Source of the DNA: Streptomyces tsukubensis
GTDB taxonomy: Bacteria > Actinomycetota > Actinomycetes > Streptomycetales > Streptomycetaceae
Direction of reading: 5' to 3'
Length of the DNA stretch: 64,000 bases
Assembly (NCBI RefSeq): GCF_003932715.1
Contig: NZ_CP020700.1
Coordinates: forward strand, 7,834,501 to 7,898,500
Below the pieces are notes generated by a model. It saw only the letters and a list, made by a program, of their open reading frames with translations. It did not search any database and was not told the origin of the DNA. Shown piece after piece: positions 1 through 15,385 of this stretch. A program made the translations under genes and the position numbers. Position 1 is the first letter of the stretch; each line of letters begins with the position of its first letter.

Positions 1-1002
1 GAGGGCCCACAGCAGCGACGACTTCCCCGAGCCGTTGCGGCCCATCAGCGCCGTCACCTCGCCCGCCCGCAGCTCCAGAGCGACCTCCCGTACGGCGGGT
101 ACGTTCCGGTGCTTCACCGTCACGCCCCGGGCGGCGAGCACCACCGGGCGGTGGGCCGGGGGAGCGGGCCGGACCGGCGGGGGCACGGCGTCGGCGAGCG
201 CGGTCCGCAGCGGGGCCGCCGCCCGGCGTGCGTCACGGATCGACAGCGGCAGCGGCGACCAGCCCGCCACCCGGCCCAGGTCCACCACCGGCGGTGCCAC
301 ACCCGAATCCCGGAACACCTCGGCGGGCGGCCCCGACACCACCCGACCGTCCCCCGGCAGATGCAGCACCCGGTCCGCGTACTGCACCACCCGCTCCAGC
401 CGGTGCTCGGCGACCAGCACCGTCACCCCCAGATCGTGCACCAGCCGGGTGACGGCCGCGAGCACCTCCTCCGCCGCCGTCGGGTCCAGCGCGGACGTCG
501 GCTCGTCGAGGACGAGGACCCGGGGATGGGCCGTCAGCACCGAACCGATCGCCACCCGCTGCTGCTGCCCGCCCGACAGCTCGTACAGCGGCCGGTGGCG
601 CAGCTCCGCCAGACCCAGCAGGTCGAGGGTCTCCTCCACCCGTTTGCGCATGGTCGCGGGCGGCACCGCCAACTGCTCCATCGCATAGGCCAGCTCCTCC
701 TCGACCGTGTCGGTGACGAAGCCGTCCAGCGGATCCTGGCCCACCACCCCCACCACATCGGCCAGCTCCCGCGGCGGATGGTGCGCGGTGTCCCGGCCGT
801 CGACGACGACCCGGCCGTGCAGCGTGCCGCCGGTGAAATGCGGCACCAGCCCGTTCACGGCCCCCAGCAGAGTCGACTTCCCGACCCCCGTATGCCCGGT
901 GACCAGGCACAGCTCGCCCTCCTCCACCGTCGTACAGACATCGCGCAGTACGGGTCCCGGCGCGCCGTCGTAGACGACGGACACCTCGTCGAAAGTGATC
1001 AC
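1..1002 (-). CDS. ECF transporter ATPase with two fused ABC domains (partial, leaves window at left edge)
   Basis: Cytoplasmic ATPase that powers an energy-coupling-factor vitamin importer. The first ABC domain is complete: Walker A GHTGVGKST near residue 40, signature LSGGQQQR near 140, Walker B VLVLDEPTSALD near 165, switch His in VAEHRLE near 197. A second ABC domain starts near residue 290 and its Walker A, GRNGSGKSS, is cut by the window edge, so this is an EcfA-EcfA' fusion. The GTG start overlaps the stop of the membrane subunit by 4 bases (GTGA), so the two are translationally coupled. The family is well known. Cobalamin as substrate is inferred from the riboswitch at the head of the operon. 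A substrate-binding S subunit is not seen in this window and may lie beyond the left edge. Confidence 0.9.
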   Translation of the reverse strand, partial: MITFDEVSVVYDGAPGPVLRDVCTTVEEGELCLVTGHTGVGKSTLLGAVNGLVPHFTGGTLHGRVVVDGRDTAHHPPRELADVVGVVGQDPLDGFVTDTVEEELAYAMEQLAVPPATMRKRVEETLDLLGLAELRHRPLYELSGGQQQRVAIGSVLTAHPRVLVLDEPTSALDPTAAEEVLAAVTRLVHDLGVTVLVAEHRLERVVQYADRVLHLPGDGRVVSGPPAEVFRDSGVAPPVVDLGRVAGWSPLPLSIRDARRAAAPLRTALADAVPPPVRPAPPAHRPVVLAARGVTVKHRNVPAVREVALELRAGEVTALMGRNGSGKSSLLWAL

Positions 1003-2219
1003 AGGGCGGAGTCCTCGGTACGGCGCGCGACGGCGCGCGGGACGGAAACCTCGGCGTCAACCTCGGCGGAAGCACCGGCGGCGGCGCGGGGCGGAGGACC
1101 GGAGGGTACGGCGGTCGGCGGCGGCGACAGGAACCCGGCGGCCCCGGCGAGCAGGATCGCCACGGCCGGGACCGGCGGCAGGGACGGCCAGCCCAGCGGA
1201 TACAGCGACGCGTTCAGCTCCGCCGCATCGAACCCGGCCCCGCTGAACAGCAGGACGGCCGAGAGCACCCCGCACCCGGCGACCGCCCACTCCGGAAGCC
1301 GCCACGGATCGGGCCGGTAGAGCGTCCGCGTCACCCGCCGGCCGCCCAGCCGCAGCCCGGCCAGACAGAGCAGGGCGCCGAAGGCCAGCGCGGGCAGTCC
1401 CAGCGGTCTCGGGGCCGTCGCGTCGAGCAGACCGTACGCCCCCGCACAGAGACCGCACATGCCCAGCAGCATCAGCGCTCCCGTCAGCCGCCGTGAACGG
1501 CGTGTCGCCGAACCCGCCCGGCCGTAGCCCCGCGAGTCCATCGCCGCCGCCAGCCGCAGCGACCGCTCCAGGGCGTCCTCCAGCACCGGCACCACGATGC
1601 CGCGCAGCGCCCGGAGCCCCTTCGTCCGGCCCGCCCGCAGTCTGCGGGCCCGGTGCACCCGCCGGACGCTCTGCACCAGCTGGGGCGCGACGCTGATGGA
1701 TACGGTGACCGCGACCCCCAGCTCGTACAGCGCACCCGGCAGCACCCGCAGGGCCCGCTTCGGATTGGCCAGCGTGTTCGCCGCCCCGATGCAGCACAGC
1801 ATGCACGCGAGCCGCAGGCCTTCCGTGGCCGCCGACAGCAGTGCCTCCAGCGATACCGGACCGCCGATCTGGATGCCCGCGTACCAGTCGGGCGTCGGGA
1901 TCGTCGGCAGCGAGAACAGGAAGTGGTCGTCCGGGGTGATCCCGGTGCCGAAGACGGCCCGGAACACCACCCTGATCGCGATCACGATCAGCGCCAGATA
2001 CAGGTAGTAGTGGAAGCCCCGGGCCCACGGCGCTTCGGTACGGCGCACGGTGACGACGTAGCCGAGGACGGCCAGGACCAGGAGCAGCAGGAGCGGATTG
2101 TTCGTCCGGCTGACCGCGGTGGCCAGCGCCAGCGCCCAGATCCACCAGGCGACGGGGTGCAGGGTCCTGGGCAGCCTCCGGCCGCCCGGGTCCGGCGCGG
2201 GGCCAGCGGTACGCAACAC
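999..2219 (-). CDS. ECF transporter transmembrane (T) subunit, CbiQ/EcfT family
   Basis: Membrane coupling subunit that links the ATPases to a substrate-binding S subunit. The 406 residues hold several hydrophobic segments (about 25-56, 70-92, 130-150, 165-183) and the two cytoplasmic coupling regions: the basic stretch RVHRARRLRAGR at 187-198 and AAMDSRGYG at 225-233, which matches the EcfT Ala-Arg-Gly-type motif. After the core, extra membrane segments at about 247-265, 277-292 and 310-330 and a Pro/Ala-rich tail make it longer than a minimal EcfT. It starts at GTG 14 bases after the 309-aa surface protein and overlaps the ATPase gene by 4 bases. Substrate is inferred from operon context. 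Confidence 0.9.
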   Translation of the reverse strand: MLRTAGPAPDPGGRRLPRTLHPVAWWIWALALATAVSRTNNPLLLLLVLAVLGYVVTVRRTEAPWARGFHYYLYLALIVIAIRVVFRAVFGTGITPDDHFLFSLPTIPTPDWYAGIQIGGPVSLEALLSAATEGLRLACMLCCIGAANTLANPKRALRVLPGALYELGVAVTVSISVAPQLVQSVRRVHRARRLRAGRTKGLRALRGIVVPVLEDALERSLRLAAAMDSRGYGRAGSATRRSRRLTGALMLLGMCGLCAGAYGLLDATAPRPLGLPALAFGALLCLAGLRLGGRRVTRTLYRPDPWRLPEWAVAGCGVLSAVLLFSGAGFDAAELNASLYPLGWPSLPPVPAVAILLAGAAGFLSPPPTAVPSGPPPRAAAGASAEVDAEVSVPRAVARRTEDSAL

Positions 2220-2233
2220 GCGGGCGGCTCCGT

Positions 2234-3163
2234 CTAATCCGTACGACGGCGGCGGCGCACCGTGACCACGGCCGCCCCGCCGAGGACCACGACCAGCCCC
2301 ACCGTCGCGATGACCGGCAGCGCCGACCCCGAATCGTGGTGGACGTCGGTGGCCGGGGCCGCGTCCACGACCTTCGGCGCCCCGCTCGCCGCGGCCACCG
2401 CCCCCGGCACCGAGGCGGCGGGCGACGGAGCAGCGGTGGACGGCGACGGCGACGGGGCGGCGCTCGTCGGCGCGCTACCGGACGGTGCGGACGGCGCGGT
2501 GGACGGTGTGGTGGCAGGGGAGGGGGCCGCGGGCGCAGTGGTACGCACCGGTGCCGGGCCGGTGTCCGTGCCCGGCGGTACCGAGGGGGCCTTCCCGCTG
2601 GGCGCGGGCGCGCCGCCCACCGGCCGGGTGTTGTGCGCCCGCAGCTGATCGGGGGTGACCTTCGGCCGTCCCTTGGTGCCGCCGATGTCCGTCCCGCCGA
2701 AGATCCACAGGTCGACGCTGCCGGGCTTCGGCTTGTAGAGCATGGCGCCGAGGGTGCTGTACTCCCAGGTGTTCTCGCCCGGATCGGCGTGCCAGTACGA
2801 CCAGTAGGCGGAGGCCGGGGGAGTGAGGACGCAGTCCTCCTGGTCCGGCGGCGGGAACATCTTCCCGCCCCGGTGCCCGCTGTAGCCGATGCGGCAGATG
2901 AACGCCGGGCCGTCGTGGCCCGTACCGGCGGTCCGCCAGCCGCCCTGGTTCAACAGCTCGTAGCCGGTGGTCGGAGTCGTACCGCACGAGCGGTAGACCG
3001 GCCCGCCCCAGCGGCTGAAGTCGACCGCGAGCACCGCACCGGACGAGGTGGTGCAGCGGCCCATCGGCTGCGGATCGGCCGCGGCCGGGGACACCGAGGC
3101 CCCCAGCGCGGCGGCCGTCAGCCCGAGCGCGGCGGCCGCGCGGGCGAACCGTGCCAGGGTCAT
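2234..3163 (-). CDS. Secreted, membrane-anchored DUF4430-like surface protein of the putative cobalamin uptake operon
   Basis: 309 residues: signal peptide ending near the AAAD at about 28-31, a beta-rich domain to about 175, an Ala/Pro/Ser/Thr-rich stalk (about 180-270), then one hydrophobic helix (about 281-300) and a basic tail RRRRR, consistent with an extracellular protein tethered to the membrane. The domain contains GYELLNQGG, GPAFICRIG and YWSYWHADPGENTWEYS followed by KPKPGSVDLWIF. The same block occurs in the 928-aa neighbour, so they are paralogous there. It resembles the small beta domain of transcobalamin-type proteins (DUF4430). Its ATG overlaps the neighbour's TGA by one base. 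A role in capturing cobalamin for the ECF importer is inference from context. Confidence 0.75.
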   Translation of the reverse strand: MTLARFARAAAALGLTAAALGASVSPAAADPQPMGRCTTSSGAVLAVDFSRWGGPVYRSCGTTPTTGYELLNQGGWRTAGTGHDGPAFICRIGYSGHRGGKMFPPPDQEDCVLTPPASAYWSYWHADPGENTWEYSTLGAMLYKPKPGSVDLWIFGGTDIGGTKGRPKVTPDQLRAHNTRPVGGAPAPSGKAPSVPPGTDTGPAPVRTTAPAAPSPATTPSTAPSAPSGSAPTSAAPSPSPSTAAPSPAASVPGAVAAASGAPKVVDAAPATDVHHDSGSALPVIATVGLVVVLGGAAVVTVRRRRRTD

Positions 3164-5949
3164 CAGCGGCTCCCCGCGGACGTCCGGCGGCGGGCGGCGA
3201 CGACCGCGGCCGCACCGACTGCCAGCAGGGCGGCCGCGAGACCGGCCAACGGCATGGCGTCCGTACCGGTCGACGCCAGCCGGCCCCCGCCGGAACCTCC
3301 GGAGCCCGTGGTGCCTCCGGAGCTGTCTCCCCCTCCGGAGCTCTCACCCGGGGTGACGATCTGCGGCGGGGCGCCGCCGTCCGGATCGTGGCCCGGTCCG
3401 GGATCCGGCTGCGGGGAGGTGCCCGCCAGGCTCCGCTTCAGCACCGCGAACGACACGGTGGTCGAACCGCCGACCGCCTGCGCCGACGCCCTGACGTCCG
3501 AACCGGGCTCCTCCACGGCGACGTCGAACCCGCCGTCGGTGTTCTGCCGGCCCGCCAGGAACACCTGCGCACGGGCGATCCGGTCGCGGTACTCCGGCTC
3601 GTCGAGCGCGAGCCCCTGAATCGCCAGCGCCGCCGAGTTGACCGAGTTCCCGGACGCGCCCGGGAAGCCGCCGTCGGCGAGCTGCCTGCCCGCAAGCCAC
3701 TTCAGGGCGCGCGCCACGGCGGCGTCGGCCTTCTCGCCGCCCACCAGGTGAAGCGCCATGGCGGCCATCGCCGTGGAGTCCACTTCCTGGTCCGAGGAGT
3801 TCCTCACCGGGATCACGCTCGGGAAGGCGCCGGACGGCCACTGGAGGGAGAGGAGATAGTCCACCGGGGCGGCGGCCGCTTCCCGCTCACCCGCCCGCAC
3901 CTGCGCGATGATCCCCAGCGACTGGCCGAACACCGACCTGGCGTTGCGGTAGTTGCCCTTCGCATCGCAGCCCTGACCGGCTGCGGCGCAGGTCTCCTTC
4001 GCCAGCGCGGCGATCAGATCAAGGCCGCCGAAGTCCCGGGGGTCGCGGCCGACCGTCTGCGCGAGGAGCGCCGCCTTCCCGATGGAACCGCCCGAGGCGT
4101 GTTTGGTGCCCGTCAGGGTCCAGCTGTGGAGGGTGCGGCCCTCGCCGTCCTTGCCGCCCTGGTCGAGGAAGTCCACGATCCCGCGGAGCTTGGCGTTGTC
4201 GTGCCCGGTGGCGGCGAGCGCGAAGGCACCGTCGATGGTCAGTCCGAAGTCGGCCCGCTGTGTGCCCGGTACGGGGTAGTAGCGGCCGCGGACCAGCTGC
4301 TTCGGGGCGGTGAGATAGGCCACGCCCTTCTTCAGGTCGGGGCCCTTGCCGGGACCGGGACCGGGACCGCCGGGGTCCGGGCCGCCCGGCTCGGCCGGGT
4401 TCTCCGGATCCGCCGGGATCACCTTGGCGACCAGGTTCAGCAGATCGGTGCCGGCGCCCGCCAGCGCGGCCGGTTCGGTGGGGTAGAGATGCGGTTCCAG
4501 GGCGAGTTCGTCGGAGCTGAAACCACCCAGCGGGAACTGCCGCCCGGCCAGCCAGGCCACGCCCTTGTCCGCGCGTGCCTTGTCGCCCGTCGCCCGCAGC
4601 ACCTGCGCGGCGAGGGCCGTGGTGGTGACATCGGCGGCATTGGTGCTGTCGGTGTAGCCGGGGAGGGAACCGTCCGCCCGCTGCTGCCCCTTGAGCTCCT
4701 CCAGGGTCTCGGCCAGGGCCCCGTCGAAGCCGCCCGCCGCATGCAGCGCCAGGGCGATCCACGCGGTCGCGGCCGGTTCGCCGTCGCAGTACTGGCCGGG
4801 CGGGTTCAGCATGCTGCCGTGACCGCCGCCGGGGCAGTCCAGCCGGGTCAGCCGGGCGACCGCCGACTCCGGCGGCTCCACACCCGCACGGACCAGGGCC
4901 AGCACCGCCATCGCCTGTGCCTCGGTGGTCCCGGCCCCGCGGAAGTCGCCCGCGGCCGAACAGCCCTCCTGCGGCGCTCCGGGCGCGGGCTCGGGGCAGA
5001 CCGCCGCCAGCAGACCGCCGATCAGATCGTGGCCGCCGAAGTCCCGCGGATCCTTCCCGACGATCTTCGCCAGGAGTGCGAGCCGGGCCGCGGCCTCCGT
5101 GTTCGGCGGCTGGTCGGCGCCTTGCGGATAGGCATAGGCGGTGGTACGGCCCCGGAGGTACGCCGAGACCCGGTCCAGGACCGCGCTCCTGCCCACCGAA
5201 GCCGCCAGGGCATAGGCCGCCTTGACGGTCAGCAGGTCACTGGGCTCGCCCGGGGAGGTCTCCACCCGCTCGCCCCCGGTCAGCCGCTGCTGCACCCAGC
5301 CGCCCGCCGCCCGGGTGCGGATCTCCGCCGGGCCGGCACCCGCCCGGATCTGGTCCGGGCTGAACGACGGCTTCGCGCCACCGCCGCCCCCGACCTCCGT
5401 GGCACCGAACACCCAGGCGTCCACATCGCCCGGCCTCAGCTTCCGGGACATCGCCCCCAGACTGCTGTAGCGCCAGTCCTTGGTGCCCTTCGCCGCCACC
5501 CAGTACGACCAGTAGGCGTCCGCGCCCGGGGTGTCCTTGCACTTCTCCCGGTCCGGCGTCGGATACTGCTTGCCGTCCGGGGCCGCGGGGTGACCGATCC
5601 GGCAGATGAACGCGGGACCGTCGTGCTCGGTGCCCGTCGTGCTGAACCCGCCGGTCTTCAGCAGTTCGTACCCCGTCGTCGGAGTCGGGTCGCAGCCGCG
5701 GACCACGGACCCGTCGAACGCGCCGAAGTCGACCGCGACGATCGCGCCCTTCGACGGAGTGCACTTCTCCGGCGCGTCGGCGGCCGCGGGCGGAGCGGCG
5801 GCGTACAGCCCGCCCGAGCAGAGCACCAGCAGCGCCACCGCCCCGGCCGCCCAGGAGCCCGGGCTCCACCACCGGCCGCCGCGCCCGTCTGTCCCTCGGG
5901 TCCCTCGGTTCGTCCCCACCCCGGCCCCTCGTGTCGTCCGCGCGGGCAC
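3163..5949 (-). CDS. Large cell-wall protein: DUF4430-like domain plus two squalene-cyclase-type alpha/alpha-barrel halves, LAxTG sorting signal
   Basis: 928 residues: N-terminal hydrophobic signal (about 30-52), DUF4430-like beta domain (about 58-190) sharing the GYELL, FICRIG and YWSYW blocks with the 309-aa protein, then two prenyltransferase/squalene-oxidase repeat regions (about 200-530 and 560-850) joined by a Pro/Gly-rich linker. The halves are duplicated: each carries a version of KIVGKDPRDFGGHDLI / QTVGRDPRDFGGLDLI. The C terminus has LASTG, a hydrophobic helix and Arg residues, the LAxTG signal used by class E sortases of Streptomyces. This barrel-plus-beta-domain make-up is that of intrinsic factor and transcobalamin. 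It is the first gene after the leftward B12 riboswitch. GTG start; a second GTG 10 codons in is possible. Ligand binding is inferred. Confidence 0.8.
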   Translation of the reverse strand: MPARTTRGAGVGTNRGTRGTDGRGGRWWSPGSWAAGAVALLVLCSGGLYAAAPPAAADAPEKCTPSKGAIVAVDFGAFDGSVVRGCDPTPTTGYELLKTGGFSTTGTEHDGPAFICRIGHPAAPDGKQYPTPDREKCKDTPGADAYWSYWVAAKGTKDWRYSSLGAMSRKLRPGDVDAWVFGATEVGGGGGAKPSFSPDQIRAGAGPAEIRTRAAGGWVQQRLTGGERVETSPGEPSDLLTVKAAYALAASVGRSAVLDRVSAYLRGRTTAYAYPQGADQPPNTEAAARLALLAKIVGKDPRDFGGHDLIGGLLAAVCPEPAPGAPQEGCSAAGDFRGAGTTEAQAMAVLALVRAGVEPPESAVARLTRLDCPGGGHGSMLNPPGQYCDGEPAATAWIALALHAAGGFDGALAETLEELKGQQRADGSLPGYTDSTNAADVTTTALAAQVLRATGDKARADKGVAWLAGRQFPLGGFSSDELALEPHLYPTEPAALAGAGTDLLNLVAKVIPADPENPAEPGGPDPGGPGPGPGKGPDLKKGVAYLTAPKQLVRGRYYPVPGTQRADFGLTIDGAFALAATGHDNAKLRGIVDFLDQGGKDGEGRTLHSWTLTGTKHASGGSIGKAALLAQTVGRDPRDFGGLDLIAALAKETCAAAGQGCDAKGNYRNARSVFGQSLGIIAQVRAGEREAAAAPVDYLLSLQWPSGAFPSVIPVRNSSDQEVDSTAMAAMALHLVGGEKADAAVARALKWLAGRQLADGGFPGASGNSVNSAALAIQGLALDEPEYRDRIARAQVFLAGRQNTDGGFDVAVEEPGSDVRASAQAVGGSTTVSFAVLKRSLAGTSPQPDPGPGHDPDGGAPPQIVTPGESSGGGDSSGGTTGSGGSGGGRLASTGTDAMPLAGLAAALLAVGAAAVVAARRRTSAGSR

Positions 5950-6049
5950 GGCACGTGGCGGGACGGCCCCGCACGGCCGGAATGAGTCACTCCGCCGGAG
6001 GCCGGTCGACCACGCCGTAGTCCGCGACGGCGTTTCTCGCTGAATCGAG

Positions 6050-6185
6050 CACCCATCCCAGGCAGTCCGGCTCGTCCGCCGCCCGGCGGACTCACGGTTG
6101 CGGGTCAGCGCCGGATTTCCACCGGCTTCCCCTGGTCATGAGCATGTATCAGCCGGATTGGAACATGTGGCCGAAGGGGGCGTCA
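6050..6185 (-). promoter_or_regulatory. Cobalamin (B12) riboswitch, leftward
   Basis: Read on the minus strand this region contains the hallmark core GGGGAAGCCGGTGGAAATCC followed by GGCGCTGACCCGCAACCGTG, then a GC-rich arm and a B12-box-like GAGCCGGACTGCCTGG (complement of about 6058-6073). This is the conserved AdoCbl riboswitch pattern. It lies about 100 bases before the start of the 928-aa surface protein, so B12 is expected to repress that gene and the ECF genes behind it. The outer limits are approximate because the P1 and peripheral helices were not folded computationally. Confidence 0.88.
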
Positions 6186-6224
6186 AGGTGACCTGAATCC
6201 CACCGCCCGGCCGTGCCGCCCGGT

Positions 6225-6385
6225 GAATCCGGCACGGTGGCGCGGCAGTTGCACCTCCGGTACCGTCCAGGGCTGTCACATGGGGGAATCCGGTGCGAAT
6301 CCGGAACTGACGCGCAACGGTGTGGGACGGCGGAAGCCGTGCCGAGTCCGAATGCCCATGCGGCGAGCACCACCCAGGAAGCCGT
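6225..6385 (+). promoter_or_regulatory. Cobalamin (B12) riboswitch, rightward
   Basis: The plus strand shows GGGGAATCCGGTGCGAATCC, GGAACTGACGCGCAACGGTG and a 3' box AGTCCGAATGCCCATGCGG at about 6343-6362, the same ordered core as the leftward element. It precedes the secreted barrel protein that starts at 6492. A GC-rich stem (CCGGGC at 6436-6441 with GCCCGG at 6456-6461) lies between the aptamer and the ribosome-binding site (AGGAG at 6479-6483) and could be part of the expression platform. Boundaries are approximate. Confidence 0.88.
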
Positions 6386-6491
6386 TACCTCGCGTTCGGA
6401 CGGCGGCCCAGCGGCCCCCACGGCCCCGGTGAGCCCCGGGCCCGGCGGACGGTGCGCCCGGCCGGTGTCCCCCATCACAGGAGCAGGCCAC

Positions 6492-7922
6492 ATGCCCCGT
6501 AGCGCAACCACCGCACCGATGCCCCGCGCCGCACTGCGCGCACTGGTCGCCACCACTGCCGCGGCCGCCGCACTCGCCGCCGCGACACTCCCCGCCACGG
6601 CGACCTCCACCCCCGCCCAGATAGCCACCTCCAAGACCAACGGCGTCGCCTATCTGAAGACCCTCCAGGCCGCCGACGGCTCCTACGCGGGCTCCGGGCT
6701 CTCCAGCGAGTGGGCGTTCAGCGCCTTCGCCGCCGCCGGTACGGCCGTCGTGGACGTCGCACCGGGCGGCGACGCCACCAAGAACGCCCGGACCGTCTAC
6801 CGCAACCTCCTCTCCACCGCCGCCTGGCCGTCCGCGACCCCCGTCGTCACCGACTATGAACGCGGCACCCTCAACGCCTACGCCGCCGGAATCGACCCGG
6901 CCCGGGTCTCCGCCTCCCGCAACCTCATCGCCGACGTCTACGGCTACTGGCAGACCGCCGAGGCCGGATACTTCGGCAACAGCGCCAACTACAACGGCAC
7001 CGTCTTCGCGGGCCTGGCGCTCGCCGGTGCCAGAACCCAGACCGGCGGACAGCGCGTACCGCAGGCCCTGCTCGACGCGATCGTCACCCGGATCCGCGCC
7101 AACCAGCACACCGACGGCGGCTGGGACTACCAGAAGGCCGAAGGCGACCCCGTCCGGCTGGCCGCCCCCGGCGACGTCGACATGACCGGCGCCTCGATGG
7201 CCGCGCTCTGCGCCGCCGGGGTGCCCGCCACCGACCCCGATATCGTCCAGGCCCGTACCTTCCTGAAGACCAAGCTGGTCAACGCCTCCGGCGCCTTCAC
7301 CGCCATGTACGGCATCAACTCCAGCTCCAACGGCTGGGCCGTCTCCGGCCTCAACGCCTGCGGCATCAACCCCCAGACCGGCGACTTCCTCACCCCCGCC
7401 GGAAAGACCCCCGTCGACTTCCTCATCGCCCAGCAGTTCAACCCCGGCGGCGGCTTCCGCTACAAGCCCTCCGACGGCAGCCCCTCCGCCTACTCCTCCA
7501 CCGACGCCCTGAGGGCCGTCGCGGGCGGCGGCTTCACCGCCGCCCCGCCGCTCCCCACCGGCGGCGCCTCCCGCTGGGTCGCCCAGAGCACCTTCACCTC
7601 CGGGACCGCCACCGAACTCGCCCTCACCGTCGACGACGGTACGGGAGCGCTCAAGGTCTGCTCGGTCGCCTTCACACCCACCGGCACCACGACCACCCTC
7701 GGGGCCGTCCTGGACGCGGCAGCCGGCGCCGCGACCCCGGCGGGCTGCGTCACCTCGGTGACCCCGTCCTCCGGCACCGGCACCATCACCGCCGTCAACG
7801 GCACGGCCAACAGCGGAAGCAGCACCTGGAAGGCGAGCGTCGACGGATCCGCCTTCACCGCGGCCGCCCGCGACCGGGTCATCGGCATCGGCGACACGAT
7901 CGCCCTGCGCTACGGCTCCTGA
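6492..7922 (+). CDS. Secreted transcobalamin/intrinsic-factor-like protein (alpha/alpha barrel plus DUF4430-like beta domain)
   Basis: 476 residues beginning MPRSATTAP, with a secretion signal ending at ATLPATATS near residue 38. Residues about 45-340 form squalene-cyclase/prenyltransferase-type repeats (for example NGVAYLKTLQAADGSYAGSG, HTDGGWDY, NPGGGFRY). Residues about 355-476 form a beta domain ending in TWKASVDGSAFTAAARDRVI and GIGDTIALRYGS, matching the DUF4430 pattern with the closing GDxI. Barrel followed by this beta domain is the layout of animal intrinsic factor and transcobalamin. No membrane anchor is visible, so it may be released or held by the anchored neighbours. The start at 6492 follows AGGAG and the riboswitch leader; longer readings would run through the aptamer. 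Cobalamin binding is inferred from architecture plus riboswitch. Confidence 0.82.
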   Translation: MPRSATTAPMPRAALRALVATTAAAAALAAATLPATATSTPAQIATSKTNGVAYLKTLQAADGSYAGSGLSSEWAFSAFAAAGTAVVDVAPGGDATKNARTVYRNLLSTAAWPSATPVVTDYERGTLNAYAAGIDPARVSASRNLIADVYGYWQTAEAGYFGNSANYNGTVFAGLALAGARTQTGGQRVPQALLDAIVTRIRANQHTDGGWDYQKAEGDPVRLAAPGDVDMTGASMAALCAAGVPATDPDIVQARTFLKTKLVNASGAFTAMYGINSSSNGWAVSGLNACGINPQTGDFLTPAGKTPVDFLIAQQFNPGGGFRYKPSDGSPSAYSSTDALRAVAGGGFTAAPPLPTGGASRWVAQSTFTSGTATELALTVDDGTGALKVCSVAFTPTGTTTTLGAVLDAAAGAATPAGCVTSVTPSSGTGTITAVNGTANSGSSTWKASVDGSAFTAAARDRVIGIGDTIALRYGS

Positions 7923-8104: not shown

Positions 8105-10312
8105 ATGGCGGAGTCCAGGCTGATTCACGACCGGTACCGGCTGGAGGAGGTGATCGGGCGCGGCGGCATGGGCGAGGTGTGGCGCGCCGTCGACGAGTCC
8201 CTGGGACGCAGCGTCGCGGTCAAATGCCTCAAGCCCGTCGGCCCCCACCACGACGCCTCCTTCTCCACCGTCCTGCGCGAACGCTTCCGCCGCGAGGCCC
8301 GGGTCGCCGCCGCGCTCCAGCACCGCGGAGTGACCGTCGTCCATGACTTCGGCGAGTACGAAGGCGTGCTGTTCCTGGTCATGGAGCTCCTCGACGGACG
8401 CAACCTCAGCCAGCTGCTGGAGGAGAACGCCCACGAGCCGCTGCCCGTCGACGACGTCGTCGAGATCGCCGTCCAGGTCGCGGACGCCCTCGCGTACACC
8501 CATGAACGCGGCATCGTCCACCGCGACCTGAAACCCGCCAACATCGTCCGCCTCACCGACGGCACGGTGAAGATCTGCGACTTCGGCATAGCGCGCCTCG
8601 GCGAGAACATCGGCACCTCGTCCCGGCTGACCGGCACCGGCATCGCCATGGGCACCCCCCACTACATGTCGCCCGAACAGATCGGCGGCGGACACATAGA
8701 CCACCGCAGCGACCTCTACTCCCTGGGCTGCGTCCTCTACGAGATCGCCACCGGCGTCCCGCCGTTCGACGATGAGGACGCCTGGGCCGTCCTCATCGGC
8801 CACCGCGACACCGTCCCGCAGCCACTCCGCGTCCACCGGCCCGAAATCCCCGAACACGTCCAGCAGACCGTGCTCGACCTGCTCGCCAAGACCCCGGACG
8901 GCCGGCCCGCCGACGCCCGCGATCTGCGTCTGCGGATGACGGGCCCCCGGGGCCTGCCCGCGGCACCCGCCCCGAGCGCCGCCCGCCCCGCGGCCCCGGC
9001 GCCCCTGCCCGCCTGGGGCCGGCGGCTGACCGGCGGCCACCACGCGACGGCCACCGCACTCCGGCCCGTCCTCCCCGACCACACCGCCGGGCTGACCGGT
9101 GAATGGACCACCGGAACCGCCGTCCGCCCCGCGCTCGCCGGGCAGACGGTACGGCGCGAGCGCCCCACCCCGTCACCGGAAGCCCTGGCCGTCCTCGCCG
9201 GCCGCCACAGCGCCGGGCTCAGCCTCGGCCGGCTCGGGCGCTGGGAGGAGGCCGGCGAGGTCCACCGCGCGGTCGCCGCCGAACGCGAACACGCCCTCGG
9301 CGCCGACCACCCCGACACCCTCGCCAGCCGCTACGAGGTCGCCTTCACCCTCAGCCGCACCGGCCGTGCGGAGGACGCGCTCGACGGCTTCCGCCGCGTG
9401 GCCGACGGCCGCGAACGCGCCCTCGGCGCCGACCACCCCGACACCCTGGCCGCCCGCCAGGAGACCGCGTACGTCCTCGGTCTCCTCGGCCGCCATCTGG
9501 AGGCACACGACCGCTACACGGAGGTGCTCACCGCCAGGGAACGCATCGTGGGCCCCGACCACCCCGACACCCTGCGCTGCCGCCACAACCTCGCGTTCAA
9601 CCTGAGCAGGCTCGGCCGTCTCGAAGACTCCTTCCGCATGGTCTGCGACGTCGCCGAGGCCCGCGCCCGGATCCTGGGCGCCGACCACCCCGACACCCTG
9701 GTCACCCGGTACGAGGTGGCCTACGCCCTCGGTCAGCTCGGCCGCTGGACCGAGGCCCTGACCGCGTACCGCGAGGTCGCCGCCGCCCGGACCCGCGCCC
9801 TCGGCGCCGACCACCCCGACACCCTGGCCGCGCGCTACGAGGTCGGCATCAGCCTCGGCCGCCTCGGCCGCGCCGCCGAAGCCGTCGACCTCTACACCGC
9901 CCTGATCGCGGACCGCACCCGGCTTTCGGGCCCCGACGACCCCGAAACCCTCCGCGCGCGCCACGGCCTCGGCGTCAACCTCGGCCGTACGGGCCGCTGG
10001 CCGGAAGCCCTGGAGCAGGCCCGCGACATCAGCACCCGCCGCGCCCGGACCCTGGGCCCCGACCACCCCGACACCCTGGTCAGCCACCGCGAGGTCGCCG
10101 TCGCCCTGGGCTGGCTGGCCCGCTGGCCCGAGGCCCTGACCGTCTACACCTCGGTCGCCGGCACCCGCGACCGCGTCCTGGGCCCGGACCACCCGGACGC
10201 CCTGGCGAGCCGCAACGACGAAGCACACTGCCTGGAACAGCTCGGGCGCCACGAGGAGGCGGTGGAGCTGTACCGGAGGGTGGCGGCCCTGCGGGACCGG
10301 CGGGCGCATTAG
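8105..10312 (+). CDS. Soluble Hanks-type serine/threonine kinase with C-terminal TPR array
   Basis: 735 residues. Kinase domain about 11-275 with glycine loop IGRGGMGEV, lysine in AVKCLKP, catalytic loop HRDLKPANIV, DFGIARLG and GTPHYMSPEQ, so all catalytic motifs are present. A Pro/Ala-rich linker (about 280-370) has no membrane helix, unlike PknB-type sensors. About eight tetratricopeptide-like repeats follow (about 375-735), each with a version of LGADHPDTLxxRxExA and LGRxxEA. TPR arrays usually bind proteins, so this is likely a cytoplasmic kinase with its own docking scaffold. It has its own ATG after GGAAGG, and a strong terminator upstream isolates it from the cobalamin locus. Targets are unknown. 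Confidence 0.92.
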   Translation: MAESRLIHDRYRLEEVIGRGGMGEVWRAVDESLGRSVAVKCLKPVGPHHDASFSTVLRERFRREARVAAALQHRGVTVVHDFGEYEGVLFLVMELLDGRNLSQLLEENAHEPLPVDDVVEIAVQVADALAYTHERGIVHRDLKPANIVRLTDGTVKICDFGIARLGENIGTSSRLTGTGIAMGTPHYMSPEQIGGGHIDHRSDLYSLGCVLYEIATGVPPFDDEDAWAVLIGHRDTVPQPLRVHRPEIPEHVQQTVLDLLAKTPDGRPADARDLRLRMTGPRGLPAAPAPSAARPAAPAPLPAWGRRLTGGHHATATALRPVLPDHTAGLTGEWTTGTAVRPALAGQTVRRERPTPSPEALAVLAGRHSAGLSLGRLGRWEEAGEVHRAVAAEREHALGADHPDTLASRYEVAFTLSRTGRAEDALDGFRRVADGRERALGADHPDTLAARQETAYVLGLLGRHLEAHDRYTEVLTARERIVGPDHPDTLRCRHNLAFNLSRLGRLEDSFRMVCDVAEARARILGADHPDTLVTRYEVAYALGQLGRWTEALTAYREVAAARTRALGADHPDTLAARYEVGISLGRLGRAAEAVDLYTALIADRTRLSGPDDPETLRARHGLGVNLGRTGRWPEALEQARDISTRRARTLGPDHPDTLVSHREVAVALGWLARWPEALTVYTSVAGTRDRVLGPDHPDALASRNDEAHCLEQLGRHEEAVELYRRVAALRDRRAH

Positions 10313-10457: not shown

Positions 10458-11702
10458 ATGAGACGGATCTTACGCGCGGTGACGGCTGCGGCGGGGGCCT
10501 GTCTGCTGGCAGCGCTGTTGCCGATGGGGACGGCGACGGCCACCCCCGGGGGCGGTGGGGTGACGGAGCGGATCAGTGTGGCCGCGGACGGGACGCAGGG
10601 CGACGGGCCGTCGTTCGTCTCGGTGATCAGCAGGAACGGCCGCTATGTCGCCTTCATGTCGCAGGCGCGGAACCTGCTGCCCGGTCCGGTCGCGCCTGTG
10701 GGCTGGCACGGGACGTACCTGCGCGACCGGCATACGGGAACAGTGGAGCTGGTGACCTCCCAGGGCCACCCGGCCGATGTGCACGACTTCAGCGCCTCGG
10801 GAAACCTGATGGTGATCACGGCACACGGCGGACTGCATGTGCGCAACCTGTCCACGGGCCACACCCAGCGGGTGGACGTCGACCTCGGTGAGTTCACCGG
10901 CGGCAGCCCGCTGTTCCCCCGGATCAGCGGCTCCGGACGCTACGTCGTGTTCGTAACGTACCGCCCGCAGGGGTCGACGGCGGCGGAGGCCGCAAGGGTG
11001 TACGTGCGGGATCTGCAGACCGGTACGACGCAGTGGGTGAGCCATCCCAACACCTCGACCGCCACCTACTACGCGGGCGCCCCCGCCATCAGCGACGACG
11101 GGCAGCGCATCGCGTACACCTCCTTCAGATACCTGCCCGAGGGCACATCCCGGGGCAATGTCCACCTCCTCGACCGGAACACCGGAGAGCGGCAGACGGT
11201 GGACGTCTCGGAGAACGGGCCGACGCCCGAACGACGGCTGGGCGGGCTGTCGTTGAGTGCGGACGGCAACCTGGTGCTCTTCAACCTCTTCGACGGCAGT
11301 CCGGTGACGGCGGACGACCAGTACTCCAGGAGTTTCATCCGCGATCTGACGACGGGTACCACCCGGCCGATCCCGGCCAGCGGACCCCAGACCGGGGCCA
11401 GCGACGGCTCGCTGAGCGCCGACGGCCGTTTCGCCCTCTACATGGTGGGCTTCCCCGGCTCGCCGGGGCCATGGCAGCTCCACATCCGGAATCTGGAGAC
11501 CGGTGAGGTGCAGAACGTGAGCACCGCGATGGACGGCGGTCCGGCCTCTGCGCATGCCTCTCCCGGGCGGGTGTCCATGACCGGCGACGGCCGCACGGTC
11601 GCCTTCGTCACGGGCGCCGCCAATCTCGTCCCCGGCGACACCAACGCCACCACGGACGTCTTCGTACGGACCCTTCCGCCCGCACCCCTCAACCCCCGGT
11701 GA
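10458..11702 (+). CDS. Secreted PD40/TolB-like beta-propeller protein
   Basis: 414 residues with a signal peptide MRRILRAVTAAAGACLLAAL ending near ATATP (about 35-39). The body has repeated propeller blades of the form ISxxGRYVAFxS, LRDRHTGTVELV, VRDLQTGTTQWV, AISDDGQRIAYTS, FIRDLTTGTTR and MTGDGRTVAFVT, typical of PD40/WD40-like TolB repeats. It is extracellular with an unknown ligand. The ATG at 10458 follows GGAGG at 10449-10453. Codon 5 is TTA (10470-10472), the rare leucine codon read by the bldA tRNA, so translation may be limited to late growth. It stands alone between the kinase gene and a small membrane protein. Confidence 0.85.
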   Translation: MRRILRAVTAAAGACLLAALLPMGTATATPGGGGVTERISVAADGTQGDGPSFVSVISRNGRYVAFMSQARNLLPGPVAPVGWHGTYLRDRHTGTVELVTSQGHPADVHDFSASGNLMVITAHGGLHVRNLSTGHTQRVDVDLGEFTGGSPLFPRISGSGRYVVFVTYRPQGSTAAEAARVYVRDLQTGTTQWVSHPNTSTATYYAGAPAISDDGQRIAYTSFRYLPEGTSRGNVHLLDRNTGERQTVDVSENGPTPERRLGGLSLSADGNLVLFNLFDGSPVTADDQYSRSFIRDLTTGTTRPIPASGPQTGASDGSLSADGRFALYMVGFPGSPGPWQLHIRNLETGEVQNVSTAMDGGPASAHASPGRVSMTGDGRTVAFVTGAANLVPGDTNATTDVFVRTLPPAPLNPR

Positions 11703-11743
11703 CCATCCGAAAGTTCTGCCCCATGCCTTAGGCTGCCGTGCCC

Positions 11744-12061
11744 ATGAACGCTGTACTGAGGTTCCGGCGACGCATACGCCGGGCGGACCGGCGGACCGCC
11801 GTCGCTGTCGCGATCGGGAACGTCGTACTGCTCACGATGCTGCTGCTGATGACGATCGGCGCACTGCCGGGCTTCGAGGCGCACACCCCGGAGCGGGAAT
11901 CCGCCGTCCAGGGAACGGCAGCCCGGATCTTCGGCTGTTGGCTCGCGGGCGGTCTGCTCCTCTTCGCCACGCTGGGCACGACCCGGGCCCTCTTCGCCCA
12001 CCTGGCCACGATGCTGGCACCGCCCGCACTGCTGATCCTGATCCTGGCGGCCGGGATGTGA
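11744..12061 (+). CDS. Small two-helix membrane protein, unknown function
   Basis: About 105 residues. A basic N terminus (RFRRRIRRADRR) precedes a hydrophobic helix (about 20-40), a short polar loop (EAHTPERESAVQ), then two close hydrophobic stretches (about 57-73 and 80-104). It would sit in the membrane with the N terminus inside. I recognise no family. The start could be ATG 11744 or GTG 11738; no strong ribosome-binding site is visible for either. The reading frame has Streptomyces-like codon use, but function cannot be inferred from its neighbours. Confidence 0.6.
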   Translation: MNAVLRFRRRIRRADRRTAVAVAIGNVVLLTMLLLMTIGALPGFEAHTPERESAVQGTAARIFGCWLAGGLLLFATLGTTRALFAHLATMLAPPALLILILAAGM

Positions 12062-13290: not shown

Positions 13291-13641
13291 CTATCTCCTC
13301 CCGAACCGGCGGCGCTTCGACGCATTGCTCCAGCCCGGCTTCTCCGGGGCGGCCCCCGGCGGGGGGCCCGCGCTCGGGCGGTGGATCAGGGTCAGGCCCT
13401 CGTGGTCGATCGGCTGCCACGCATGGTCGTGCGTACGGAACGTGAAGCCCTGCTCGTTGTCCGTCGAGTGGGTCAGCAGGGCGCGGCCCTGGCCCGCGTA
13501 CTGCCGGACCTCATCCCACAGCACGTCCCGCACGCGCGCCGACGGATCGCCCACGAACACGCCCGGTGAGATCTCCAGCAGCCAGCGCGTCAGGAAGCCC
13601 CGCAGGCCCGGTGGGCAGTTCGTCAGCACGATGACCGTCAC
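13291..13641 (-). CDS. cas2: CRISPR-associated Cas2, type I-E
   Basis: 116-residue partner of Cas1 in spacer acquisition. It begins VTVIVLTNCPPGLRGFLTRW and continues with LLEISPGVFVGDPSARVRD, the CasB-like Cas2e pattern rather than the shorter Cas2 of other types. The C-terminal 25 residues are Pro-rich and end in a basic tail (KRRRFGRR). The GTG start overlaps the cas1 stop by 4 bases (GTGA). It is the last gene of the cas operon and ends 31 bases from the convergent gene at 12150-13259, so no array follows it. Confidence 0.95.
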   Translation of the reverse strand: MTVIVLTNCPPGLRGFLTRWLLEISPGVFVGDPSARVRDVLWDEVRQYAGQGRALLTHSTDNEQGFTFRTHDHAWQPIDHEGLTLIHRPSAGPPPGAAPEKPGWSNASKRRRFGRR

Positions 13642-14603
13642 CAGAGCACCGCTTCGTCCGCATCGGCAGCCGCCGACGAACCGTAGTTGACCCCGGACGC
13701 CACCTGTCCGTCCCCGTCGGTCCGGAGGGTCATCCGGTCCTCGTCGGGGATGTCCCCGGCGCCCGGCAGCAGCAGCCGCTGGATATCGCGGACACAACGG
13801 TCCAGGAGCCGGGTCTCGTTGATCCGGTCCCGCAGCGCACGGCGCGTCCGTGCGCCCGTGTCCTCTTCGCTCTCGGCCGCCACGTCGAACGCCAGCGGAA
13901 TGCCGATATCGGTCTTGTACAGGTCCGCGATATCGAGGACGAAGGACAGCTCGTGGCCGGAGTGGACGAAGCCCAGCCCGGGGGCGCAGCCCAGGGAGGC
14001 GACGACCGCGTGGGCGATTCCGTACATGCACTGCGCCGCCGCCGTGATCGCCTGGTTCACCGGATCGCCCGAGCCGAAGTCGCCCGGCGTGTACCTCCTG
14101 CCCTTCCAGGGGACTCCGGTACGCGCCGCCTGGGCGCGGTAGCACTCCTTGACGCGGTCGCCCTCCCGGCCCAGCAGCTGCTGACGGGTCAGAGCCGCCG
14201 GGTCCTCGTCGGGGAACCGCAGCCGGTACATGGCCCGGGCGACACCGAGGCGGCTGCGCTGGTTGGCCCACTGCACCGCCTGGGCCTCCACCAGCGCCGC
14301 GGACCGGCTCAGCGCGCGGCCGCCCGCGTAGTAGCGGACACCGTGCTCGCCGACCCAGGCGACCGCCGCGCCCGTCTCGCCGAGGACGCTCATCGCCTGG
14401 TGGGTGATGCGGGTGCCCGGCCCCAGCAGCAGGGTGCCGATGGTCGCGGACGGGATGTGCGTCGTACCGTCGGCGTCCTCCGCGGTGATCGCGTTGGAGT
14501 CCCGGTGGACCGTACAGCGCTCCAGATAGACGAAGGACACCCGCTCGGCGGTGCGGGTGAGCTGACGGGGGGACAGCGCGGCGCGCCTGCCGACGGTCGT
14601 CAC
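13638..14603 (-). CDS. cas1: CRISPR-associated Cas1, type I-E
   Basis: 321-residue integrase of spacer acquisition. The metal-binding residues of the family are present: Glu147 in GREGDRVKE, His214 in GFVHSGHELS, and Asp224/Asp227 in FVLDIADLYK, which aligns with the Cas1e block of E. coli. Start chosen at GTG 14603 because it overlaps the cas6e stop by 4 bases (GTGA), as elsewhere in this operon; a longer frame upstream would lie inside cas6e. A C-terminal tail of about 40 residues after the catalytic core is acidic and probably flexible. Confidence 0.95.
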   Translation of the reverse strand: MTTVGRRAALSPRQLTRTAERVSFVYLERCTVHRDSNAITAEDADGTTHIPSATIGTLLLGPGTRITHQAMSVLGETGAAVAWVGEHGVRYYAGGRALSRSAALVEAQAVQWANQRSRLGVARAMYRLRFPDEDPAALTRQQLLGREGDRVKECYRAQAARTGVPWKGRRYTPGDFGSGDPVNQAITAAAQCMYGIAHAVVASLGCAPGLGFVHSGHELSFVLDIADLYKTDIGIPLAFDVAAESEEDTGARTRRALRDRINETRLLDRCVRDIQRLLLPGAGDIPDEDRMTLRTDGDGQVASGVNYGSSAAADADEAVLW

Positions 14604-15385
14604 GGCCCCGCCTCCGCGGCGACGGGCACGAGGGTCATCAGCCCGCACCCGTACGCCCGCGCCTTGCCGATGCCCCGGGTGAGGGTACGGCGCAGGGCGA
14701 CCGGATCCGTGACCGTCAGCCGGCCGTCGTACGTCACCGTGACGATCTTCACCCGGTGCACCGGCGATCCCCGGCCGGCCGCGGACTTGGCGAAGGACAG
14801 CTCCCGCTGGTCCCGGACGACCGCCTCGTAGGCGTCCCCGTGGTGCGGGCGCCCCTGGAGAGTCCTGCCGCCCGGCAGCAGCCGCTTCTCCGCGGGCTTC
14901 TCCAGCACCCGGTAGCCGGAGCGCTTCTGACGCTCGTCGTCCAGCAGCCAGCCCAACTGGTGGTGGGGGGTGATGTGCGCCGTGCGCTTCGTCGGTTCAC
15001 CCTCCTTGCGGCGGATGTAGTGGACCGGATTGGCCGTCAGCCGGAAGCTCCACACACCACCCGTCTCCAGCCGGTCGAGAAAGGGGCCGTAGGGCCGCGT
15101 CTCCCATCCCGGGGTGGCGGGGTCGGCGGCGGCCACCGGCCATCCCGCCTGTTCGACGAGGTGGGTGAGGTCCGGCCGGTCGGGGCCGACGACATGGAGG
15201 AAGACCTCGGCGCGGGCGTTGTGGTCCAGGCGCCACAGCACCCGGGGCCCCTCCGCGTCGTCGCCGTCGCCGGGCAGCAGCCCGGGGAAGGACGCCAGCA
15301 CCGCGGCGTGCAGTGCCTGGGGGGCCGAGAGGAGTCGCCGCGCACCGGGCCGGGCGGTGTTGACGCGGAAGCGGGTCAGGTACAT
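14600..15385 (-). CDS. cas6e: CRISPR RNA endonuclease Cas6e (CasE/Cse3)
   Basis: 261 residues, normal for Cas6e. It cuts pre-crRNA at the 3' base of each repeat hairpin and stays bound as a Cascade subunit. Tandem ferredoxin-like folds are expected; the start MYLTRFRVNT, His26 in QALHAAV (position of the family catalytic histidine), and the C-terminal Gly-rich loop GIGKARAYGCGLMTL are visible. It begins 14 bases after cas5e and overlaps cas1. Its substrate is the array at 22887-23517, whose repeats keep the same 6-bp stem although their loops vary. Confidence 0.95.
   Translation of the reverse strand: MYLTRFRVNTARPGARRLLSAPQALHAAVLASFPGLLPGDGDDAEGPRVLWRLDHNARAEVFLHVVGPDRPDLTHLVEQAGWPVAAADPATPGWETRPYGPFLDRLETGGVWSFRLTANPVHYIRRKEGEPTKRTAHITPHHQLGWLLDDERQKRSGYRVLEKPAEKRLLPGGRTLQGRPHHGDAYEAVVRDQRELSFAKSAAGRGSPVHRVKIVTVTYDGRLTVTDPVALRRTLTRGIGKARAYGCGLMTLVPVAAEAGP

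Follow-up and report, generated by a model that had tools for sequence, protein, structure and literature searches.

We analyzed a stretch of 64,000 nucleotides from Streptomyces tsukubensis (NZ_CP020700.1, positions 7,834,501-7,898,500; genome of 8.0 Mb), referred to here as the window, whose left end carries a divergent locus of surface-protein and energy-coupling factor (ECF) transporter genes preceded by vitamin B12 (cobalamin) riboswitches. We consider it likely that this locus is a B12-repressed system for the capture and import of cobalamin or a close corrinoid. The reading draws on a computational analysis of the gene set, its riboswitches, a complete ECF transporter, the conservation of the unit, the fold of a secreted protein of 476 amino acids (aa) and the anchoring signals of its companions; we infer in addition that the surface proteins bind cobalamin and hand it on in a set order. 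The named closest relatives of the window proteins are from Streptomyces.

Riboswitches and ECF transporter of the divergent locus

The leftward operon, on the minus strand, encodes in order a 928-aa surface protein (3163..5949), a 309-aa surface protein (2234..3163), an ECF T subunit (999..2219) and an ECF A subunit (1..1002). The rightward arm is the gene for the 476-aa secreted, transcobalamin-like protein (6492..7922, plus strand), and a riboswitch stands ahead of each. The cobalamin riboswitch family RF00174 matches at 6032..6130 on the minus strand (leftward operon, 35.5 bits) and at 6284..6383 on the plus strand (476-aa gene, 31.9 bits, barely above the gathering score of 31.5), and these are the sole Rfam matches of the window at gathering score. 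Both riboswitches carry the B12-box core pattern with 0 mismatches, and the pattern gave no hit in 320,640 shuffled bases with up to five mismatches allowed, the shuffles preserving base composition only. The sign of riboswitch control in the locus would be repression by B12. A candidate helix of eight pairs between the start of the 6284..6383 riboswitch and the ribosome site was dropped, as such a helix was supported (matched by at most 5% of shuffles) in only 7 of 51 loci, that of the window included.

The T subunit, of the CbiQ type, has 406 aa, seven hydrophobic stretches and a match to PF02361 (46 bits, cut-off 25). The A-subunit gene is cut by the window edge; the full gene (547 aa, L009:11359-13002) encodes a double ATP-binding cassette ATPase with ABC_tran over cut-off in two stretches, and its best NCBIfam match is ECF_ATPase_1, at 197.8 bits below the equivalog cut-off of 315. 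Left of the window, at genome positions 7832972-7833862 on the minus strand, a gene for a 296-aa S subunit follows directly, its start falling inside the end of the A gene. Because the S gene was found right after the A gene, the importer is complete, with A, T and S together, and dedicated. The 928-aa and 309-aa genes share one base, the 309-aa and T genes lie 14 bases apart, and the T/A and A/S pairs overlap by four bases, so that a single transcript for 928-309-T-A-S is likely. The first-pass annotation of the window, made from its sequence, had described two B12 riboswitches flanked by surface-protein genes, had claimed co-transcription of two of these genes with ECF T and A, and had proposed to look beyond the left edge for an S subunit; the matches, the gene spacing and the 296-aa protein agree with it on each point.

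We call the 296-aa protein an S subunit from its position, its membrane stretches and the names of its relatives: most named relatives among its best 120 matches are annotated as an ECF transporter S component, and PF12822 is found in relatives and not in the query. Of 22 S sequences initially selected, 18 are in the S alignment, and a profile search with the family recovered no S component. The sole structure match in the S-subunit search was FolT, weak at an expectation value (E) of 0.16, and the best NCBIfam match was the folate S family TIGR04518, at 19.2 bits against a cut-off of 60. Folate specificity was accordingly not accepted, and the subunit was not assigned to another vitamin; an S subunit specific for another vitamin is what the first-pass annotation had named as fatal to its proposal. 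Its specificity may well be for cobalamin.

It is also conceivable, if rather unlikely, that the transporter imports cobalt or a B12 precursor (cobinamide or a lower-ligand base) and that the surface proteins bind the precursor. The CbiQ/CbiO type of the T and A subunits speaks for such an importer, as do the de novo B12 genes of the genome and the occurrence of B12 riboswitches before cobalt-uptake operons, noted in passages of PMC2667541. Pfam reported no cobalt-uptake family for the S subunit, a toroid carrier is unnecessary for cobalt, and cobalamin carriers rank first for the fold of the 476-aa protein, points that favor uptake of cobalamin itself or a close corrinoid; cobinamide may still be the substrate.

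Folds and anchoring signals of the surface proteins

The predicted structure of the 476-aa protein has the N-terminal toroid and C-terminal beta domain of the transcobalamin fold. Compared with the PDB, the model matched 11 entries at E <= 0.001, every one of them an entry for intrinsic factor or for transcobalamin, the latter in some cases together with its receptor CD320. Judged from the model, the kinship of this protein to transcobalamin is visible by fold alone. Between the 476-aa type and bacterial DUF4430, the domain of the transcobalamin type, hhalign gave E 2.4e-5 with a probability of 75%. The sole hydrophobic stretch is N-terminal and the hydrophobicity profile shows no anchor, features that fit secretion.

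The 928-aa protein starts with its beta domain and continues with two toroids, an order unlike that of transcobalamin. Its toroids, modeled with AlphaFold2 mostly at a predicted local distance difference test (pLDDT) score of 90-98, are closer to terpene cyclases and glycosidases than to transcobalamin, and Pfam SQHop_cyclase_C is over cut-off in the protein. We rejected the toroids as transcobalamin-specific, since terpene cyclases come top and transcobalamin ranks 43, 45 and 50 among the 50 matches listed; a second fold comparison covers mainly residues 530-832 and barely includes the beta domain. Searching the PDB by sequence and profile with the 928-aa protein did not bring up transcobalamin. 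The 309-aa protein consists of the beta domain only, without a barrel; it shares 56-57% identity with the domain at the N-terminus of the 928-aa protein and scores 23.8 bits against SCO2322_fam, under the cut-off of 85. The first-pass annotation had seen three proteins with a barrel and a DUF4430-like domain, built like the animal carriers. The barrel stands for the 476-aa and 928-aa proteins and falls for the 309-aa protein, the match of the 476-aa protein to DUF4430 stays below cut-off, and the animal-carrier build is found in the 476-aa protein and not in the 928-aa protein.

The tail of the 928-aa protein reads LASTG, then a hydrophobic (membrane) stretch and a basic tail, and an N-terminal hydrophobic stretch is also present. 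LAxTG is the motif used by class E sortases. LASTG or LAATG occurs in 53 of 56 aligned relatives, the genome has nine sortase matches, and the protein has the features of a sortase substrate; the NCBIfam LAETG model scores 20.1 on it, below the cut-off of 30. In the 309-aa protein a C-terminal hydrophobic stretch (277-304) is followed by a basic tail, and the N-terminus looks signal-like by eye, yet is under the hydrophobicity threshold. These tail features fit wall anchoring of the 928-aa protein and membrane anchoring of the 309-aa protein.

If the toroid proteins were secreted enzymes (terpene cyclases or glycan-active) or adhesins, their regulation by B12 would be a matter of chance. The resemblance of the 928-aa toroids to terpene cyclases and glycosidases is as given above. 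DxDD is the acid motif of class II terpene cyclases; it occurs in 0 of 50 members of the 476-aa family and, wherever in the protein, in 5 of 56 members of the 928-aa family, so that neither family reads as a class II cyclase. With the strict linkage of these genes to B12 riboswitches and an ECF operon, we regard an enzymatic or adhesive role as very improbable compared with a role in corrinoid capture.

Conservation, regulon and beta-domain families

We examined the conservation of the unit with the S subunit as query, keeping 80 loci with organism names out of 153 confirmed related ones and counting flanking genes in the 61 S loci with a full upstream flank. T was present in 59, A in 60, the 309-type gene in 57, the 928-type gene in 56 and the 476-type gene in 51; a standalone DUF4430 gene was found in 20. 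Two divergent riboswitch cores (at most three mismatches) occur in 50 of the 51 loci with a 476-type gene, the exception being L192, and a core lies upstream of the 928-type gene in 51 of 56 loci and within 500 bases of the DUF4430 gene in 8 of 20. B12 riboswitches or core patterns were also seen downstream of S genes (L207:7173-7313, L170 and L172), pointing to further regulon members.

Among 61 Streptomyces genomes, the S family is present in 57 and the 476-aa protein in six, which identifies the window locus as an optional second copy; the common copy in the genus is a SCO2321-type operon. DUF4430 and the window-type S subunit are each present in ten of these genomes and shared in nine (Fisher 5.7e-9, ignoring kinship). 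The SCO2321-type operon is without the core pattern in six of eight sampled genomes with window-type S, the genome of the window included (L104, L105, L106, L113, L114 and L116), and B12 control may be shifting between operon copies.

The genome holds nine cobalamin riboswitches over cut-off, two of them in the window. The others precede cobN, cobD/cbiB, metE, a ribonucleotide reductase alpha gene, a binding-protein gene (Pfam Peripla_BP_2; NCBIfam matches all below cut-off), a DUF4430 gene and a paralogous operon encoding a toroid protein (SCO2321 family, 553 bits against 300), a beta protein, T, A and S. The DUF4430 gene lies about 200 kb from the window (C1:7634236-7637827; L010:8237-8987, 11605-11828) and encodes a 164-aa protein (30.3 bits against 23.8) whose hydrophobic stretch is N-terminal only, with no anchor; a second riboswitch beside it, at 81.3 bits, is the one that precedes metE. 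The surface proteins could mainly retain or sequester soil B12, made by the host itself or by its neighbours, as a shared or competitive store that feeds the importer in part. Such a store would suit a host that is probably a B12 maker and proteins, of 476 and 164 aa, that are anchorless by hydrophobicity. The tight linkage of the 476-aa gene to the transporter operon, in 50 of 51 loci, suggests importer supply, and we hold storage as the main role to be quite improbable next to capture for import.

Farther afield, of 198 sampled genomes from across the phylum, 35 have DUF4430 over cut-off. Riboswitch linkage was counted in 31 of the 35, leaving out three of the genus of the window and G340; two genomes of that genus were also scanned for B12 riboswitches, beyond the 31 distant ones. 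A B12 riboswitch over cut-off was found in 20 of the 31, and in 18 of these 20 DUF4430 lies at most 5 kb downstream on the same strand, compared with a chance expectation of about 0.05; in four more of the 31 a sub-threshold riboswitch lies ahead of DUF4430. That DUF4430 proteins serve B12 gains independent support from this riboswitch linkage in distant actinobacteria. By eye, frames that adjoin or overlap DUF4430 in L075, L093 and L098 resemble ECF T or A, some of them in genomes without a detected B12 riboswitch.

Of 246 genomes sampled from the class, 131 carry the S profile, spread over 59 of 103 genera. Two genomes of 1.36 and 1.46 Mb (L203 and L204; G161 and G223) have a riboswitch of the AdoCbl-II or AdoCbl (adenosylcobalamin) family followed by genes for a beta protein, T, A and S. 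A beta-type gene is detectable in nine of ten distant S loci, weak in L205 and L210, with none in L206.

The beta domain of the SCO2322 type looks circularly permuted relative to the 309/928 type, because its alignment to the latter extends once the SCO2322 type is doubled, as permutation predicts: the two aligned over 51 columns (score 71) before doubling and over 92 columns (score 86, E 9.5e-13) after it, and a deeper profile aligned over 118 columns (score 80). Permuted-looking SCO2322-type domains occur in L050, L203, L204, L209, L211 and L212. The 309-type domain aligned with DUF4430 collinearly in hhalign (E 1.9e-4 and 4.6e-4, probability 48% and 33%; controls against the S subunit 0.38 and 0.31), which is no more than suggestive of homology. 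In the same comparisons the 309-type domain was unmatched to the 476-aa family (0.084) and the SCO2322 type to DUF4430 (0.35 and 0.58).

Elsewhere in the window, a 735-aa serine/threonine kinase with tetratricopeptide repeats (Pfam) is encoded after the locus at 8105..10312 on the plus strand, and frames at 13291..14648 on the minus strand presumably encode CRISPR proteins, given their resemblance by eye to Cas1 and Cas2.

Proposed capture and import of cobalamin and comparison with known systems

We propose that at low intracellular B12 both riboswitches would permit expression. The exported 476-aa protein would hold the corrinoid between toroid and beta domain, as transcobalamin does; the wall-attached 928-aa protein and the membrane-anchored 309-aa protein, the latter beside the transporter, share related modules and would pass the ligand inwards; and the S subunit would bind it for uptake driven by the T and A subunits. 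The first-pass annotation had suggested secreted capture, wall display and membrane hand-off in one regulon: the anchoring features and the conserved riboswitch-linked unit bear out the set, and the hand-off is a step that we infer. A broader proposal, which we offer tentatively, is that this actinobacterial ECF family as a whole has a permanent extracellular partner of the beta-grasp type, which would serve it much as a substrate-binding protein does. Its minimal form would be the riboswitch, beta, T, A and S of the two genomes of about 1.4 Mb; in Streptomyces it would have grown into a relay of transcobalamin-like carriers, one free and others bound to wall or membrane, and in the SCO2322 branch the beta domain would have become circularly permuted.

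Several observations weigh against the capture and import of cobalamin as read here. The toroid of the 476-aa model is poorly predicted (mean pLDDT 59.6), and over the whole chain the root-mean-square deviation from most carriers is about 12-15; transcobalamin did not come up when the PDB was searched by sequence and profile with the protein and its family; and the C-terminus of the protein scores 16.1 bits against Pfam DUF4430, under the curated cut-off of 23.8. The S subunit has no relation to CbrT, the solved B12 S component, that is detectable by sequence or profile. The genome has another riboswitch-preceded binding-protein gene, and the host probably makes and uses B12 itself, because genes for CobN, CobD/CbiB and CbiC and a B12-dependent methionine synthase domain are present; with a supply of its own, the host would seem to be recapturing or saving B12 more than strictly needing it. 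A riboswitch lies just upstream in only four of nine distant S loci scanned (L203, L204, L208 and L211), with one after S only in L207 and none at gathering score in L205, L206, L209 and L210. Of 19 loci with the SCO2321-type operon, only 3 have a riboswitch that reaches the gathering score and 9 have the core pattern, so control of this operon is patchy or its sites have diverged.

The human carriers transcobalamin, intrinsic factor and haptocorrin share with the 476-aa protein the order toroid then beta domain, and its model matches their fold; they differ in having no detectable sequence match to it, and in animals the carriers work through receptors in place of an ECF importer. ECF-CbrT of Lactobacillus delbrueckii (PMC5997447) is likewise an ECF-type importer, with the role proposed here for the window transporter. 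The S subunits of the two are not detectably related, however, and in passages of that paper it is CbrT itself that binds the substrate, no surface carrier being described, in keeping with their account of the S component in the ECF class. BtuG of Bacteroides also captures B12 at the surface for a transporter, and is set apart by its description, in passages of PMC6143338, as exclusive to Bacteroidetes and a partner of the outer-membrane BtuB. The paralogous SCO2321/SCO2322 operon of this genome likewise has toroid, beta domain, T, A and S after a B12 riboswitch, but has a single toroid, a beta domain that looks permuted relative to the 309/928 type, and no 476-type gene.

The closest precedent is a 2007 paper (Burroughs et al., PMC1796856), passages of which name a transcobalamin-like clade of the SLBB beta-grasp superfamily, describe toroid fusions, secreted or anchored to the wall, whose operons contain CbiO- and CbiQ-like genes, and propose B12 scavenging and a transfer of transcobalamin-like proteins to animals. 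Bacterial transcobalamin-like scavenging is thus already known as a prediction, and the field is better charted than the first-pass annotation, which called it poorly described, had taken it to be. The passage of a molecule of the size of cobalamin through the thick Gram-positive wall to a membrane importer has been little tested; a conserved, riboswitch-marked set in a manipulable genus such as Streptomyces makes the 2007 prediction directly testable, and the riboswitch-DUF4430 linkage has a bearing on the origin of transcobalamin and intrinsic factor in animals. Among the papers listed in our searches of the open-licence PMC literature, none was on this locus. Of the traits by which the paper describes the clade, which also include a beta-hairpin insert that follows the helix, secreted or anchored proteins, a toroid before or after the beta domain and a CbiO/CbiQ-like operon are present in the window locus. 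The bacteria of the clade are said there to be usually, not by definition, without key B12 synthesis enzymes, whereas the host of the window has CobN, CobD/CbiB and CbiC. The hosts named there are low-GC Gram-positives, planctomycetes and euryarchaea, with no actinobacteria among them, and the word riboswitch is absent from the main text. Set against what those passages report, the additions made here are riboswitch control, an actinobacterial version whose host probably makes B12, an S family dedicated to the system, a two-toroid wall protein and a beta-domain family that looks permuted.

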